NCBI GenBank assembly: GCA_016744855.1 | Contig: JADGDO010000016.1 | Span: forward strand, 1 to 64,000 | Length of the DNA: 64,000 bases | Source of the DNA: Candidatus Fermentibacteraceae bacterium | Lineage (GTDB): Bacteria; Fermentibacterota; Fermentibacteria; Fermentibacterales; JCC-6 | Direction: 5' to 3' | In this document: positions 56,604-64,000 of the stretch, piece after piece | Layout: the number at the start of each line of letters is the position of its first letter | How positions within the stretch are numbered: the first letter of the stretch is position 1 | Position numbers and translations under genes: made by a program | Notes under the pieces: generated by a model | The model's input: the letters and a program-made list of their open reading frames with translations, nothing else | What the model was told of the DNA's origin: nothing | Databases searched by the model: none

Positions 56604-57754
56604 ACATCCCTCCGAACCAGTTCGGCAAGTACACTGCAGGCAACACCTTTTCCGAGGGCAAGCTCTCCAATTGTATTGGTTGTTGTCCCCTTTATCCATA
56701 CATTTTCAACAGAGATCCCTGCAATTTCTGAAAGCCTTTCCATAAGGATATTCCGAATGGGAGAGATCTTGGGCTTTTCGCCGATGACAGTTACATCAAG
56801 CCTATCAATAGTCCAGCCGGCTGCCCTCACCTTTTCAACACAGACAGCAAACAGAGCAGAACTGTCAGCATCTTTCCATTCAGCTTTATCAGGAGGAAAG
56901 AATGTTCCGATGTCACCCAGTCTGGCTGCAGACAGAATAGCATCAGCCACAGCATGAAGCACCACATCACCGTCTGAATGACCCATAAGCCCACCGGTAT
57001 CAGAGAGTTTGCATCCACAGAAAAAGAATGGTCGATTGGGATCAAAAGGATGGAAATCAAGGCCAGTACCCAAGGCTCTTTTAGCCTTGTTTAAAAGAAT
57101 TGAAAGCATTTCAGCATCCTCCCTGTCTGTCAGTTTTATATTTTTTCTGGATCCACTGACAGTTACAACCTCTTCGCCGACTGCTTCAAAAGCAGAAGCT
57201 TCGTCGGTGATATCACCCGCTGCAGCCAGAACTTCAAGAAGCCGAGACATATGAAAACCCTGAGGGGTCTGACTCAGTCGAAGCTCCTCTCTGGACAGGG
57301 TATCCAGCACCTTCTCATCGTCTACCCTCTTCACTGTATCCCGCACTGGAATAACCGGTATCACAGCAGGATTGGTCATGCATGCTTCCATAACGAGTCT
57401 GATTGATTCAGAAGTGACGAGAGGTCTCGCGCCATCGTGGATCAGTACATGAGTAACTCCCATTTTTTTCAGAAATTTCAACCCACAGGCTACTGAATCC
57501 TGTCGCCTAATTCCACCGGGAACAGTATCAAGCCCCGGAAATGGGGTCCACCACTTTTGCCAATCTTGTGGTGGCGTAACCACCACAAGATGATCGACAA
57601 ACGGCTTCAAAGCTTTAACAGCATGATTTACTACCGGCTCACCGGCCAGCAAAGTGAATTGCTTGGGTATATCACCACTGAAACGTGCAAACCTGGTACC
57701 GGATCCAGCGGCCACAACAACAGCACCCCAAAGAGGGATATCAGTTCTGGGCAT
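56600..57754 (-). CDS. ispDF: bifunctional IspD-IspF isoprenoid enzyme
   Basis: A 384-residue fusion of two steps of the MEP pathway. Residues 1-225 are MEP cytidylyltransferase (IspD): GAVVVAAGSGTRF, PKQFTLLAGEPVVNHAV, VPGGIRRQDSVACGL, VLIHDGARPLV, QTPQGFH. Residues 230-384 are MECDP synthase (IspF): GTGLDFHPFD with the metal-binding Asp/His, GGLMGHSDGDVVLHAVADAILSA, DIGTFFPP, and the C-terminal GTTTNTIGELALGKGVACSV. The intermediate step (IspE) is not encoded here. Start taken as ATG 57754, overlapping the PIN/TRAM gene by 14 bp; ATG-equivalent 57802 is less likely. Confidence 0.95.
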   Translation of the reverse strand: MPRTDIPLWGAVVVAAGSGTRFARFSGDIPKQFTLLAGEPVVNHAVKALKPFVDHLVVVTPPQDWQKWWTPFPGLDTVPGGIRRQDSVACGLKFLKKMGVTHVLIHDGARPLVTSESIRLVMEACMTNPAVIPVIPVRDTVKRVDDEKVLDTLSREELRLSQTPQGFHMSRLLEVLAAAGDITDEASAFEAVGEEVVTVSGSRKNIKLTDREDAEMLSILLNKAKRALGTGLDFHPFDPNRPFFFCGCKLSDTGGLMGHSDGDVVLHAVADAILSAARLGDIGTFFPPDKAEWKDADSSALFAVCVEKVRAAGWTIDRLDVTVIGEKPKISPIRNILMERLSEIAGISVENVWIKGTTTNTIGELALGKGVACSVLAELVRRDV

Positions 57755-58754
57755 TCTCAGAGCTGCCTTCTGCTGCAACCTTACCGAAGACCATAGTTCC
57801 ACCTTTTGCCCGGAAAGTTGTGTGAGTTGTTACCTGGGTCTCCTTGCCAAGAAGATCCCCGGCTTCATCAACAACAACCATTGTTCCGTCAGAGAGGAAT
57901 CCCACTCCCTGTGAAGAAGTTCTTCCCTTTTTCTGAATCTTAATCGTGAATGAATCTCCGGGCAGAACAACTTCTCTGGAAGCAGGTCCTACCTCAGAAA
58001 GACGAATTACTCTTATACCCTCGCGCTCTGCAGTATCTGCCATGTCCACATCACCTGTGAGCAAGCAGACTTTCTCTTTTCGGAGCCATTCGAGCATACG
58101 ATGTTTTTCTCTTTCACCTTCTCCGAAATCCTGATACTCCATAAGACCACCGGACTGGCCGACAGCTTCTTTTAATCTCTGGATAGTCTCTGTGGCTCTT
58201 CTGGCCCTTCCTCTTTTTACGATGTTCCTGCCGTTCTGCATCTCATCAATACTGTGCTTTACAGACAAAGGAATAGAAAAAGGTCCAGGAAGTAGACCGG
58301 CAAGGGAAAGATCTGCAACCCTTCCATCAACTGCAGCCGAAAGATCAACGAGAACAGGCATATTCCACTCGGCACCAACTTCTTCCTCAATACTGATTAG
58401 CTCAAGCTTTCTTCCCTTATTAACCGCAACTACTGCAAACACATAGGCGAATGCAACCGGAATAAGAACCAACAGATCAGAAAGAGAGGAATTCAAGTTA
58501 TCCCCGCGTACTCCAATTTTTAGAACCAGAATAACAAGCAATCCGATAACAAGTCCCACTGCAGCACCCGTTGTAATGTAAACGAGCTTGTCTGCAGAAA
58601 CCTTAATGATCATCCGTTCAAGAACAGCAGCTACAATTCCAATACCAAGACCAATAAGTCCAATCATCAGGCTTCCTGATGCAAGTGTCCCTGCAAGGCC
58701 GAGGGCAAGAATAAATAGAATACGCACTTCCCAGCCTTTCATCAACTTAACCAT
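57741..58754 (-). CDS. membrane-anchored PIN/TRAM-domain protein (YacL-like)
   Basis: A 337-residue protein with four membrane segments in residues 10-125, a PIN nuclease-fold domain (NMPVLVDLSAAVDGRVADL with the first Asp, SIDEMQNG, VCLLTGDVDMADTAE) and a C-terminal TRAM domain (PGDSFTIKIQKKGRTSSQGVGFLSDGTMVVVDEAGD). This order is that of B. subtilis YacL, commonly next to radA and ispD as here. AAGGAG precedes the ATG and the start overlaps radA by 13 bp. The RNase activity is plausible but unproven for the family. Confidence 0.93.
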   Translation of the reverse strand: MVKLMKGWEVRILFILALGLAGTLASGSLMIGLIGLGIGIVAAVLERMIIKVSADKLVYITTGAAVGLVIGLLVILVLKIGVRGDNLNSSLSDLLVLIPVAFAYVFAVVAVNKGRKLELISIEEEVGAEWNMPVLVDLSAAVDGRVADLSLAGLLPGPFSIPLSVKHSIDEMQNGRNIVKRGRARRATETIQRLKEAVGQSGGLMEYQDFGEGEREKHRMLEWLRKEKVCLLTGDVDMADTAEREGIRVIRLSEVGPASREVVLPGDSFTIKIQKKGRTSSQGVGFLSDGTMVVVDEAGDLLGKETQVTTHTTFRAKGGTMVFGKVAAEGSSENAQN

Positions 58755-60115
58755 TTTTCTCCTTTTTCCACCAGAAGCCCTGAAATTGCAGCAGCAAGTG
58801 TGCTGAATCTGAATTTTGCTCCGGTGTCTTCTTTTTTCTCACGGGCAGAGGCTAGATTGGTAAATCCAAGGTTGCCTGATTCCGCGAGTCTTCTGTCCAT
58901 TCCGGCAACGGGTCTGATCTCGCCACCGAGACCAATTTCCCCGCTCAAAGCCGTATCTTTTTTAAGCGGTCTTTCTAATCTGCTGGATGCAACCGCAAGG
59001 CAAACAGCCATATCTGCTCCGGGATCAACAATATTAAATCCCCCTGCAACATTCACATACACATCCTGATTACCCAGTTCGATTCCACATCTTCGCTCCA
59101 GAACTGCAAGAAGCATTGCAAGGCGGCCCGAGTCAAAACCTGTTGCACGTCTCTGGGGAAAACCGTAATGTGTCGTACTGGTAAGGGCTTGCACTTCCAC
59201 CAGGAAGGGTCTAGTTCCCTCCATGATTGCTGCAACAGCTGAGCCGGCACCAAGCCCCCCATCTCTCTGAAGGAAATAGCCGGATGCATCTGCAACTTCC
59301 TCCAACCCTTTTTCTTTCATTTCAAAAACTCCCAGCTCACTGGTAGAGCCAAATCTATTCTTAACAGCTCTGAGAAGTCTGAATTGATGAAATGAATCAC
59401 CTTCAAAGCTCACTACCGCATCTACAAGATGCTCGAGAACTTTTGGTCCAGCTATTGATCCTTCCTTGGTTACATGTCCAATAACAAATACAGTTAATCC
59501 TCTTGGCTTTGCGAGATTCACAAGGTTGGAGGCGCACTGTCTTACCTGAGAAACAGATCCCGCTGCACTTGAAAGCTGATTCGTATGGAGAGTTTGTATA
59601 GAATCAACAATAAGCACCTGATAGTCATCTGTTTCAATTTTCTTCTCTACAGCAGATAGATCCGTTGTGGGAAGAAGCATAAGATTCTTTGTCGGCTTTC
59701 CAACCCTTCTGGCCCTGTCTGCAACCTGCCCGGGGGACTCTTCTCCCGTGGCATACAGAACATTAAGACCAGAGGAAGCCATATTCATTGCAGCCTGTAT
59801 CATAAGTGTGCTTTTACCTATGCCCGGTTGCCCTCCTATCAGAACAACTGAACCCTTGAAAGCTCCTCCACCGAGAACTCTATCAAACTCACCGATTGAT
59901 GTCGAAATTCTCTCTCCGTTTTCAATATCAACATCAATAATGCTTACCGCATCTATCCGAGAAGGATATCCGGGGGAAACGGAAGACATTGTTTCCATGA
60001 TTTCTTCAACCATGGTGTTCCAGCTTCCGCAATGGGGACACTTGCCGGCCCAGACCGGTGAATCTCCACCGCATTCAGTACAGAAAAAGACAGACTTCGG
60101 TTTTTTCCCAGCCAT
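58742..60115 (-). CDS. radA: DNA repair protein RadA
   Basis: A 457-residue RecA-like branch-migration helicase that acts in homologous recombination. A four-Cys zinc finger (FFCTECG...GKCPHCGSWN), Walker A GGQPGIGKST, Walker B VLIVDSIQT, the RadA-specific KNRFG in AVKNRFGSTSELG, and the C-terminal Lon-protease-like domain (YVNVAGGFNIVDPGADMAVCLAVASS). The ATG overlaps the dnaB stop as TAATG. Confidence 0.97.
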   Translation of the reverse strand: MAGKKPKSVFFCTECGGDSPVWAGKCPHCGSWNTMVEEIMETMSSVSPGYPSRIDAVSIIDVDIENGERISTSIGEFDRVLGGGAFKGSVVLIGGQPGIGKSTLMIQAAMNMASSGLNVLYATGEESPGQVADRARRVGKPTKNLMLLPTTDLSAVEKKIETDDYQVLIVDSIQTLHTNQLSSAAGSVSQVRQCASNLVNLAKPRGLTVFVIGHVTKEGSIAGPKVLEHLVDAVVSFEGDSFHQFRLLRAVKNRFGSTSELGVFEMKEKGLEEVADASGYFLQRDGGLGAGSAVAAIMEGTRPFLVEVQALTSTTHYGFPQRRATGFDSGRLAMLLAVLERRCGIELGNQDVYVNVAGGFNIVDPGADMAVCLAVASSRLERPLKKDTALSGEIGLGGEIRPVAGMDRRLAESGNLGFTNLASAREKKEDTGAKFRFSTLAAAISGLLVEKGEKWLS

Positions 60116-61467
60116 TAAAATCCGTCATCCTGCATATCATCGGGATGAAAAGTCGTCGTAGAAGCATTAAAAATCAGTCTGATGTCGCCTCGCTGTCCTT
60201 TTCTCTGTTTTGCTATTTTAAGAAGTATTCTCCTGAGTCCACCCTGTGCCCTGTCATCCTCATTTCCAGTGTCTGCATTCTCGTCGTGAAGAAACATGAC
60301 CATATCAGCATCCTGCTCTATTGCTCCGGAATCTCTTAGATCACTGAGCCTGGGTGGGCCTTCACGCTTTGCCGCACCTCGACTCAACTGAGACAAAACC
60401 ATCACTGGAACTTTTAAATCTTTAGCCAAACCTTTGAGATCTGAAGAGTTTTTAGCCACCTTGAGCTGATGGCTTTCAACACCATCGTCTCCCTGCATAA
60501 GCTGCAGATAATCTACAAATACAGCAGCAATACCACCCTTCTCCCTCTGAGCAAGGCGTCTTGTCTTAGCTCTTATCTCTGCTGATGAAATTGATGGTGT
60601 ATCGTCTATATAAATGGGAAGTGTGCTGAGGGTCTCGGCGGCATTCTCCAGATCAACAAAAAAACGGTCTGCAAGAGTATTGTCTATAATCGCCTGTATC
60701 CCAACACCTGCCATTGAGCTTATAAGCCTTTGTGTAAGCTGGTCAGCAGTCATCTCCAGGCTAAAGAAAACAACGGCTCCTACTTTCTGTGCCGCAATGT
60801 GACGGGCCATATTCAAGGCAAGACTTGTTTTTCCGACTCCAGGTCTGGCTGCGATAACGTTCATTTCACCTGCATGAAATCCAGTCGTCATCCGGTCGAG
60901 AGGTACAATCCCTGTGGACAGACCGGTAACTCCATCGCTAGCTTCACGCATTTTCTGGAATGTGATAATCGCTTCGGTAGTCAGCTCACTGACTTTGAAG
61001 AAATCTTTCTGTGAGGAAGATGTGCCTATATCAAACATTTTCTGACTCACATCATCCAGAAGCTCGCTGGCATTAACATTGGTTGAAAAAACCTTGTCCA
61101 TACCCAAGCTGGCTATTGTCAGAAACTGCCGGAGAAGCGAACCGTCTTTAACAATTCTGCAGTAACTGAGAACATTAGAGAGAAATGGAAGATCATCTGT
61201 AATCCCCGCTATGTACTCAAGTCCACCGGCTTCTTCTAACTCACCGGTTCTCTCGAGCTCATTGGTTACTGTGACAAGATCAATTGGTTCCCCTCTGGAA
61301 TCAATAATTTTAGATGCCAGAAAAATTCTACGGTGTCTGTTATCGAACAAATCGCTCTCAGTAAGCATTGCAAACACTTCAACTGCAATCATTGGATTCA
61401 GAAGAACACCGGCAAGAACAGCTTTCTCAGCTTCAGCACTCCATGGCTGTTTTCTACCTTCAGTCAT
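60115..61467 (-). CDS. dnaB: replicative DNA helicase DnaB
   Basis: A 450-residue hexameric helicase. The N-terminal DnaB domain (SAEAEKAVLAGVLLNP...DLFDNRHRRIF) is followed by the RecA-like motor: TGFHAGEMNVIAARPGVGKTSLALNMA, VFFSLEMTADQL, FVDYLQLMQG, VMVLSQLSRGAAKR, LSDLRDSGAIEQDADMVMFLHD. No intein is present. Its start overlaps the glycosylase gene by 8 bp. Placement with radA is common; rplI or ssb partners are absent. Confidence 0.97.
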   Translation of the reverse strand: MTEGRKQPWSAEAEKAVLAGVLLNPMIAVEVFAMLTESDLFDNRHRRIFLASKIIDSRGEPIDLVTVTNELERTGELEEAGGLEYIAGITDDLPFLSNVLSYCRIVKDGSLLRQFLTIASLGMDKVFSTNVNASELLDDVSQKMFDIGTSSSQKDFFKVSELTTEAIITFQKMREASDGVTGLSTGIVPLDRMTTGFHAGEMNVIAARPGVGKTSLALNMARHIAAQKVGAVVFFSLEMTADQLTQRLISSMAGVGIQAIIDNTLADRFFVDLENAAETLSTLPIYIDDTPSISSAEIRAKTRRLAQREKGGIAAVFVDYLQLMQGDDGVESHQLKVAKNSSDLKGLAKDLKVPVMVLSQLSRGAAKREGPPRLSDLRDSGAIEQDADMVMFLHDENADTGNEDDRAQGGLRRILLKIAKQRKGQRGDIRLIFNASTTTFHPDDMQDDGF

Positions 61468-62170
61468 TATTTCCCTTCGATTCCCGGGGCAGTCCTGCCT
61501 CTTCCATGAAAGATTTCAGTTTCTTCATATCTTCCCAAACGGGTCTTTTCAAAGCTGGTGAGCGGAGGAGGGCAGCTGGGTGGTAAGTAACAAGAACAGG
61601 TGTACCCATATAGCTGTGAAAGTCTCCCCTTAAAAGACCAATACCAGTCCTGGTGTTCAGTAGAGTTCTTGCTGCGCTTGCTCCAAGAGCTACGATGATT
61701 CCCGGCTTCATGATCTCAATCTGTCGTTGAAGATATTTGCCGCAGATCTCTGACTCCGAGGGTGAAGGGGCTCTGTTGTTAGGCGGTCGGCACTTAACGA
61801 TGTTTGCTATAAATAGTTTTTCCCTACCGAGGCCAATTGATGCAAATATTTTGTCCAGCAACTTCCCTGACTTACCGACAAAAGGTTTTCCGGTTTCATC
61901 TTCAGTTGCCCCAGGTCCTTCTCCGACTATCAGTATACCTGCTTCGGAATTGCCTTCTCCAAAAACAATATTCTTTCTGGTTGAACCAAGATCGCATTTC
62001 ATGCATCCGGAAATTTCCTTCTCGAGCAGGGCCATTTCCCCCGTTATTCCCTCTGGTATGATTGTCTGTTCAACTTCTATTTTTCTCTGAATCCATTCGG
62101 GAAGCACTAAGATCTGATCGGCCCCGAAGCTGGCTACAGCAGCCCAGAATGGATCAATAACCTTACCCAT
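61460..62170 (-). CDS. family 4 uracil-DNA glycosylase (Fe-S)
   Basis: A 236-residue uracil-DNA glycosylase. The first 50 residues are an extra N-terminal region; the core starts with Fe-S ligands in GCMKCDLG and continues with ILIVGEGPGATEDETGKPFVGKSG (motif 1, split), NIVKCRPPNNRAPSPSESEIC (the other two Cys) and VTYHPAALLR (motif 2). It removes uracil from DNA. It overlaps the gmk-coaB gene by 8 bp and dnaB by 8 bp. Confidence 0.95.
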   Translation of the reverse strand: MGKVIDPFWAAVASFGADQILVLPEWIQRKIEVEQTIIPEGITGEMALLEKEISGCMKCDLGSTRKNIVFGEGNSEAGILIVGEGPGATEDETGKPFVGKSGKLLDKIFASIGLGREKLFIANIVKCRPPNNRAPSPSESEICGKYLQRQIEIMKPGIIVALGASAARTLLNTRTGIGLLRGDFHSYMGTPVLVTYHPAALLRSPALKRPVWEDMKKLKSFMEEAGLPRESKGNND

Positions 62171-63452
62171 TACTCAAACCTTCCATTTCGCGTCCCAGCG
62201 CTGCTGCAATTCCGAAAGCAACAAATTTCTTTGATCCATGCATTATTTCGACATCTTCAGTATCCCCGGCAAAGAGCAGAGTTCCCGAGTTGCATGCCGT
62301 TTCCATACCCGTATCCGGTTTATCTCCTCTGTTCAGAAAGATTGCATGAGAACCCTTTTTCATCATTTTCTTACGGGCTCGCAGCAGTGAGGTTTCACCG
62401 TACTCAAGTGCAAACGAAAGAACTGGGCAACTACATGAAAGAGAAACAGTAATATCCGGAGTGGATTCAAGGGCAATGGAGAAATCCCCATCAGTTCTTT
62501 TCAGTTTCCCCGCAACTGGATTCGATGGAGCAAAGTCCGCAACTGCTGCTGCCATAACCAGAAGATCAGCTTCTTTTGTCTCTTTCCCAAGAGCATCGAG
62601 CATCTCTGAAGCGCTGCCTACTTTAACCAAGCGCACCGGCCCGGGAGGGTCCATTTGGAAGGCGGGGCCACTGACAAGAACAACCTCTGCACCTGCATAA
62701 AGAAAGGCCTCGGCAAGAGAAACCCCCATCAAACCACTGGAACGGTTTGAAATGAATCTGACCTCGTCAATCATCTCTCTTGTAGGTCCGGAGGAAACAA
62801 CAACTCGTTTCCCTTTCCAAAAATCAATGCCATTCATGTAATTGCCATGATAGTCCAATGCCTGAACGGGCCATCCAATAGTCTGAAGCTTCATTTTTTC
62901 CGCAAGGAAAATGGTTACAATCTCGGATTTTGCTTTTTCAAGTTCATCGTTACAGACAAAGTAATCGAAAACCCCCATAAATGATACTTCTCCAGCGGCA
63001 GCTTCCATCCGCTTCTCAACTGTTTTTCCTGAATCTGTATTCCTTTGTTCCAAGCGCTTTAAAAGCACTTTGCTGCTGGCAGGTAAAACAAAAATCAGCA
63101 CAGCCGATGGCATAGTCTGCTTAATCTGAACCGCACCCTGAACATCAATATCAAGAACTACATTCTTCCCTAACGCGAGCTGGTTCCGTACCCATGATCC
63201 ATCTGTGCCATACCTGTTTCCATGGACATGAGCCCATTCAAGAAAATAGGAATTTCGAATTCTAGTATCAAATTCATCATCATCGACAAAGAAGTAATCC
63301 CGGCCGTGCATTTCTTCACCGCGCGGTAATCTGGTGGTGGTTGAAACAGAAAAATCTGTTCTGTCATTCCCACCGACAAGATGATGTGCAAGAGTTGTTT
63401 TCCCAGCTCCTGAAGGTCCGGCAAGAACAAAAAGCATTCCACTACTGGACAT
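62163..63452 (-). CDS. gmk: guanylate kinase fused to phosphopantothenoylcysteine synthetase domain (Gmk-CoaB)
   Basis: A 429-residue fusion. Residues 1-190 are guanylate kinase (GMP to GDP): P-loop VLAGPSGAGKTT and the signature TTRLPRGEEMHGRDYFFV, then VVLDIDVQGAVQIK. Residues about 210-429 are the CoaB half of CoaBC: VVVSSGPTREMIDEVRFISNRSSGLMGVSLAEA (split motif), VVLVSGPA, MAAAVADFAPSNPVAGKLKR. The CoaC flavoprotein decarboxylase half is missing and only a roughly 20-residue linker joins the domains. In many bacteria gmk, rpoZ and coaBC are consecutive; here rpoZ and coaC are gone. Start taken at ATG 63452 (AGCAGG upstream); a GTG at 63467 is possible. Confidence 0.92.
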   Translation of the reverse strand: MSSSGMLFVLAGPSGAGKTTLAHHLVGGNDRTDFSVSTTTRLPRGEEMHGRDYFFVDDDEFDTRIRNSYFLEWAHVHGNRYGTDGSWVRNQLALGKNVVLDIDVQGAVQIKQTMPSAVLIFVLPASSKVLLKRLEQRNTDSGKTVEKRMEAAAGEVSFMGVFDYFVCNDELEKAKSEIVTIFLAEKMKLQTIGWPVQALDYHGNYMNGIDFWKGKRVVVSSGPTREMIDEVRFISNRSSGLMGVSLAEAFLYAGAEVVLVSGPAFQMDPPGPVRLVKVGSASEMLDALGKETKEADLLVMAAAVADFAPSNPVAGKLKRTDGDFSIALESTPDITVSLSCSCPVLSFALEYGETSLLRARKKMMKKGSHAIFLNRGDKPDTGMETACNSGTLLFAGDTEDVEIMHGSKKFVAFGIAAALGREMEGLSNG

Positions 63453-64000
63453 TTGCAACCTGCTCACGAAGACCCCCGAGAATATCTTTCATCTCAATCA
63501 CCTGATGTACAGCTTCGGAATTATCGACCTTGGAACCCATGGTGTTCAGTTCCCGATGCATTTCCTGAAGAATGAAACCAAGTTTTCTGCCGCAGTCGTT
63601 TTCTTCCAGAACAAGAAGAGCAGAATGAACATGAGCGGAGAGTCGCTGGAATTCTTCCGAAATATCAATTCTGTCAGAGAGAAGGGCCATTTCCTGAGCC
63701 AGCCGATCATCATTCACCTTGGCATCACCAAGCAATTCAGTTATTCTGTTTTTTCTCTCGCAGAAAAGATGAGTCACCCGCTGGCTGTGTCCTTCAGAGA
63801 CAGGAACGGAAAGTTTATCTATCAATTGCAATTTTTCAGCAAACATCGATGCCAGACCATTTCCCTCTTCACGCCTTGAATTAAGTAAATGCTGAAATGC
63901 TTCTTTCACAGCAGAGAGAAGATTCTGATCAAAACCTTCACCCGCTGAAGGGTCGGGAACACGCATCATGCCAGAGAGGGTTACAAGTCGAAAAGCGTCA
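63442..64000 (-). CDS. yicC: YicC-family endoribonuclease (partial, 5' end beyond window)
   Basis: 186 residues of the C-terminal part; the frame is open to the window edge (DAFRLVTLSGMMRVPD). DISEEFQRLSAHVHSALLVLEENDCGRKLGFILQEMHRELNTMGSK is the strongly conserved YicC/YloC C-terminal domain (DUF1732), ending MKDILGGLREQVANVQ as usual. The family includes endoribonucleases. It is the usual upstream neighbour of gmk and overlaps it by 11 bp. Confidence 0.95.
   Translation of the reverse strand, partial: DAFRLVTLSGMMRVPDPSAGEGFDQNLLSAVKEAFQHLLNSRREEGNGLASMFAEKLQLIDKLSVPVSEGHSQRVTHLFCERKNRITELLGDAKVNDDRLAQEMALLSDRIDISEEFQRLSAHVHSALLVLEENDCGRKLGFILQEMHRELNTMGSKVDNSEAVHQVIEMKDILGGLREQVANVQ

Follow-up and report, generated by a model that had tools for sequence, protein, structure and literature searches.

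The genes for guanylate kinase (Gmk) and phosphopantothenoylcysteine synthetase (CoaB), essential and normally separate neighbors, are here joined in one gene encoding a single two-part protein. The gene lies in a window of 64,000 nucleotides, the whole stretch of DNA that was analyzed, from a draft genome of 107 contigs that is 94.85% complete. Comparison of the protein with its relatives makes it very probable that the fusion is a true bifunctional enzyme, with both halves active, that had a single origin, in the ancestor of the uncultured phylum Ca. Fermentibacterota. The features on which the analysis was based are as follows.

62163..63452, minus strand: gmk::coaB fusion gene, 429 residues from the ATG, identified by its open frame and Pfam and NCBIfam matches.
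62907..63434, minus strand: guanylate kinase domain, residues 12-187, with P-loop and GMP-site residues intact.
62820..62906, minus strand: inter-domain segment, residues 188-216, of which residues 196-216 show no change of length in 28 of 28 aligned relatives.
62277..62819, minus strand: CoaB/DFP core domain, identified by Pfam match, with Asn241, Asp311 and Lys321 invariant in 29 of 29 proteins.
63442..63999, minus strand: yicC, of which the window contains the C-terminal part, immediately upstream of the fusion, identified by Pfam and NCBIfam.
61460..62170, minus strand: family 4 uracil-DNA glycosylase (udg), directly downstream of the fusion and the same neighbor in outgroups.
60115..61467, minus strand: dnaB replicative helicase, the gene after udg and also the same neighbor in outgroups.

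The ATG at 63452, which overlaps the yicC stop, is the more likely start of the fusion gene over an alternative GTG that extends the frame to 62163-63467 on the minus strand (434 residues); residues are numbered from the GTG. The overlap with yicC is 11 nt and that with udg at the 3' end is 8 nt. Both domains are complete, as the earlier note had claimed for a Gmk joined directly to CoaB in one frame. Guanylate_kin (PF00625) matched residues 12-187 with an E-value of 3.5e-44 and DFP (PF04127) matched residues 217-397 with an E-value of 5.5e-51 (173.5 bits against a cut-off of 22, profile 1-185 of 186), the two joined by a linker of approximately 30 residues. The kinase half scored 212.7 bits with the NCBIfam guanyl_kin model TIGR03263 (cut-off 160.45), covering profile positions 1-178 of 180, and on this score belongs to that family. 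The CoaBC model TIGR00521 returned 144.3 bits, below its cut-off of 219.7, and covered the CoaB half only (profile 184-388 of 392); since CoaC is moreover encoded by a separate gene, the product would not be classed as a bifunctional CoaBC. The score with the coaB_strep model TIGR02114 was 49.5 bits (cut-off 217.2) compared to 144.3 with TIGR00521, indicating a CoaB half closer to the CoaBC type. The arrangement resembles the split system of coaB_strep and coaC_strep (TIGR02113) in that CoaB and CoaC are on separate polypeptides, and differs from it in the type of CoaB and in the fusion to Gmk.

The closest solved structures by sequence were guanylate kinases for residues ∼8-195 and CoaB or CoaBC proteins for residues 218-424. 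Relative to the bacterial kinases of E. coli (2AN9) and S. aureus (4QRH), the N-terminal half is a whole kinase with P-loop, GMP-site and lid residues, unlike them only in that the C-terminal tail continues into CoaB. Relative to bacterial CoaBC proteins (M. smegmatis 6TGV and E. coli 1U7Z), the CoaB half is homologous over its length (6TGV 190-405, 5INT 5-208) and retains the site Asn, Asp and first Lys, whereas the N-terminal partner is Gmk instead of CoaC. An AlphaFold model built from 17 alignment rows was weak over CoaB (mean pLDDT 61, pTM 0.48, with residues 225-246 and 263-347 under 50) and the packing of the domains is not readable from it.

Thirty fusion loci were fetched and the 29 proteins spanning both domains were aligned, leaving out one cut locus (L015). 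The kinase residues of the P-loop, GMP site and lid were invariant in all 29, including Ser42, Arg46, Arg49, Glu77, Tyr86, Thr88 and Asp108, the roles of which we assume from the yeast and E. coli enzymes. The CoaB half was equally constant at Asn241, Asp311, Lys321, Phe352 and other residues; the catalytic Asn, the metal-binding Asp and the first Lys of the K-x-K-K motif presumably correspond to N210, D279 and K289 of E. coli CoaB. That motif reads K-x-x-R in the fusion, with the first Lys and the fourth-position Arg present in 29/29 and the third-position Lys in 9/29. According to one study the K-x-K-K motif is conserved widely across bacteria with few exceptions (PMC7794376). The altered form was considered as a hallmark of the fusion and rejected, since an unfused outgroup CoaBC (L157) reads K-L-Q-R; for the same reason K-x-K-K, typical and not universal, was not taken as defining CoaB.

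Matches to the fusion were found in 41 of the 42 Ca. Fermentibacterota genomes and in all nine genera. Forty of them show the two domains joined, including two (G020 and G038) in which the gene is cut by contig ends and the join can still be seen; in G037 the ends of the fusion are on two contigs and G025 gave no match. Contigs of both G037 and G038 (L163, L165, L076) break after fusion residue 117, and the two G038 pieces overlap by ∼120 nt, as expected of breaks in k-mer assembly. The DFP domain was detected once in each of 40 of the 42 genomes and is always that of the fusion gene. A search of the contigs of the window's own genome likewise recovered one DFP and one Guanylate_kin domain, both belonging to the fusion. 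In a single draft genome (G027, L016:1477-3444), one open frame of 656 residues continues from Gmk-CoaB through to the uracil-DNA glycosylase downstream. Its similarity to the fusion stops at residue 405 and the glycosylase follows; this apparent CoaB-glycosylase fusion is probably a frameshift.

Beyond the phylum the fusion was not found in the samples searched, which is the outcome of sampling and no proof that it is absent. Among the matches listed (at least ∼138 bits) from a search of 385 genomes, 343 of them outside the phylum, none crosses both domains. A search of 386 genomes (mostly the same sample) at a threshold of 1e-60 produced three matches, all in Fermentibacterota, and none in the 383 others. 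The phyla of the outgroup genomes G175 and G295 contained the fusion in 0 of 8 and 0 of 2 genomes, respectively. In a scan of named genomes, 8 of the 80 loci kept were fusions, one cut at a contig end and all from Ca. Sabulitectum or Fermentibacteraceae, and the other 72 matched the kinase part only. A candidate precursor, family f120 (G158 and G295), was rejected: its matches, which extended to residues 229-231 across stops, proved to be separate gmk genes, and G295 has an unfused coaBC. No report of a Gmk-CoaB fusion was found in the literature searched, which covered few subscription journals, in agreement with the earlier note, which knew of no described enzyme of this kind.

Trees of each half were constructed with 28 fused sequences and either 21 guanylate kinase outgroups or five CoaB outgroups with long branches. 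All 28 fused sequences fell on one side of one branch in both trees, with branch values of 100/99 for the kinase and 94/95 for CoaB, and pairwise distances in the two halves correlated at 0.95 (378 pairs). The stem was 1.61 long for CoaB compared to 0.4 for the kinase. A long CoaB stem fits the loss of contacts with CoaC, although the small number of outgroups makes this no more than a hint; the same stem and small outgroup leave some room for a CoaB half that has changed function or is of foreign origin.

The genes flanking the fusion are also conserved. The cluster in the phylum is ordered yicC, gmk::coaB, udg, dnaB and radA. In all 11 genomes with a wide context, representing 8 of the 9 genera, yicC lies before and the family 4 glycosylase gene (udg4) after the fusion; where the contig continues beyond udg4, dnaB and radA follow, and then a gene that resembles PIN-domain genes by a weak Pfam match. 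The last of these, the neighbor after radA at 57741-58754 of the window, is kept in the cluster and is only weakly PIN-domain-like (E 0.066), with no NCBIfam match. The outgroups for gene order were 13 genomes with top-scoring kinases and thus are not a random sample. Three from other phyla (G295, G175 and G312) have the order yicC-gmk-coaBC-udg4-dnaB. In G312, G125 and G059 gmk directly abuts coaBC, and G175 and G295 have between the two a small gene that is rpoZ-like by eye. That rpoZ is only weakly identified, the small gene having no Pfam support in G295 and a weak rpoZ match (E 0.016) in the related G158. The other eight of the 13 have gmk with no two-half coaBC match beside it or are cut by a contig end. 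Since the flanks are common to the fusion and the outgroup gmk-coaBC clusters, the best interpretation of the fusion is that a yicC-gmk-coaBC-udg-dnaB cluster collapsed in place, supporting the proposal in the earlier note of a collapsed yicC-gmk-rpoZ-coaBC cluster.

The same note had described rpoZ as absent and the CoaC half as missing from the cluster, with CoaC to be supplied elsewhere or by another route. A scan of the window for CoaC and rpoZ found neither within or directly beside the fusion gene; both are missing from the cluster and present elsewhere in the genome. The Flavoprotein domain of CoaC (PF02441) was found as one copy each in 39 of the 42 phylum genomes; the three lacking it (G018, G021 and G002) are 61, 66 and 77% complete, respectively. 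One scanned example matched the CoaC half of the coaBC_dfp model (profile 5-177), and a conserved His, the stretch P-x-MN-x-RMW and the motif CG are common to 35 aligned rows; we take these to be the motifs of CoaC. These proteins look like stand-alone CoaC, the supply from elsewhere in the genome that the earlier note had anticipated. In the 35 of the 39 genomes examined for adjacency (30 loci together with L167 and L169-L172), the next gene downstream of coaC is invariably mtnA, encoding methylthioribose-1-phosphate isomerase. In the window's own genome CoaC is a fragment (C20:4-249), truncated where contig C20 starts, and the coaC tail and mtnA are both present (L167:1-1184). The pairing of coaC with mtnA is a new partnership (L167:1-1184, L035-L064). 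The rpoZ gene was detected in 39 of the 42 genomes with E-values of at most 0.001, of which 38 exceed the cut-off, and never at the place of the fusion; the copy in the window's own genome (L166:4496-4759, contig C63 of G000) is divergent, scoring 29.5 bits against a Pfam cut-off of 26. It is far from gmk, and the widespread gmk-rpoZ pairing (PMC9973325) is broken.

Several alternatives were weighed against a bifunctional enzyme. The window is from a draft assembly and the contigs of some relatives end inside the gene, as might be expected if two contigs had been joined, or a stop missed, through an error of assembly or binning. Such an artefact is rejected, its probability being next to nil, because the same joined frame occurs in 40 of 42 genomes of nine genera, many of them separately assembled, with no gaps in the linker and conserved neighbors on both sides; the assembly join for which the earlier note recommended a check is thereby excluded. 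It is improbable that the frame is real and two proteins are nonetheless made from it, by an internal start or by cleavage, such that the fusion serves translational coupling only. Some of the sequences do have an ATG, GTG or TTG before CoaB, in some cases with a Shine-Dalgarno-like stretch, whereas no start position is common to all 29 aligned fusions and two of the 29 have none of these codons in the 40 preceding the CoaB core. The spacing is also against it, with 53 residues separating the CoaB core from the final kinase strand in 29/29. Linker residues 196-216 are without gaps in 28/28 (L016 left out) with a mean pairwise difference at 62% of sites, and in the same set Trp217 is kept in 28/28 and Pro200 and Gly213 in 27/28; however, the gap-free linker is less striking than it seems, as the kinase half is likewise gap-free in this alignment.

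The long CoaB stem and the altered K-x-K-K motif might also be read as signs that the CoaB half was repurposed and makes no phosphopantothenoylcysteine, serving for example in nucleotide binding that regulates Gmk. This is very improbable, considering that the fusion contains the sole DFP domain of each genome, that a stand-alone CoaC requiring the product of CoaB is retained and that the catalytic Asn, the Asp and the first Lys are invariant. Nor are nucleotides likely to be channelled or shared between the halves, as the earlier note had conceived. Both halves belong to nucleotide-binding families; however, CoaB uses CTP and releases CMP, whereas Gmk turns GMP into GDP and CMP is not known to be a Gmk substrate. 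With the GMP-selecting residues of the Gmk half invariant and no substrate or product in common, a transfer of nucleotides from one half to the other is not expected, and the probability of channelling is slight in the extreme.

In the preferred reading, that of a bifunctional enzyme, the N-terminal half would be a functional guanylate kinase specific for GMP (ATP + GMP to ADP + GDP) and the C-terminal half the only phosphopantothenoylcysteine synthetase of the genome (CTP + phosphopantothenate + cysteine to phosphopantothenoylcysteine + CMP + PPi). Starting from an ancestral cluster yicC-gmk-(rpoZ)-coaBC-udg-dnaB, the stretch between gmk and coaB, comprising rpoZ if present and the CoaC half of coaBC, would have left and the flanking pieces become one frame, with the pathway completed in trans by coaC, now a separate gene upstream of mtnA. 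Most likely each site works independently of the other, and the fusion would provide a fixed 1:1 expression. The Gmk half would occupy the N-terminal place held by CoaC in CoaBC. CoaB is a dimer in known structures. Dimerization and activity of M. smegmatis CoaB require CoaC and E. coli CoaB is active alone (PMC7794376; for further background on CoaB, PMC8205227). That Gmk supports the CoaB dimer in place of CoaC is a guess.

In characterized Gmk dimers the lid of each subunit is positioned by the C-terminal tail of its partner, which thereby decides whether (p)ppGpp is inhibitory; this effect on lid position and (p)ppGpp sensitivity has been reported for the B. subtilis and E. coli enzymes (PMC6783271). 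CoaB is joined, at fixed length, to exactly that tail, and a regulatory coupling is therefore a testable idea: CoaB might sense movement of the Gmk lid or alarmone binding in Gmk, or conversely Gmk might respond to CoA bound at CoaB. By analogy with these kinases it is conceivable, if rather unlikely, that the fusion couples the guanine-nucleotide state to coenzyme A synthesis. If so, one protein would act as a joint brake on the supply of GTP and CoA, and in any event the fusion is a ready-made protein for testing joint regulation of the two syntheses. The fusion may also serve as a molecular marker of Ca. Fermentibacterota. By cutting the ties of both gmk and coaB and joining the two to each other, the phylum has performed a clean natural experiment, which would demonstrate that CoaB is able to function when a different partner takes the place of CoaC.
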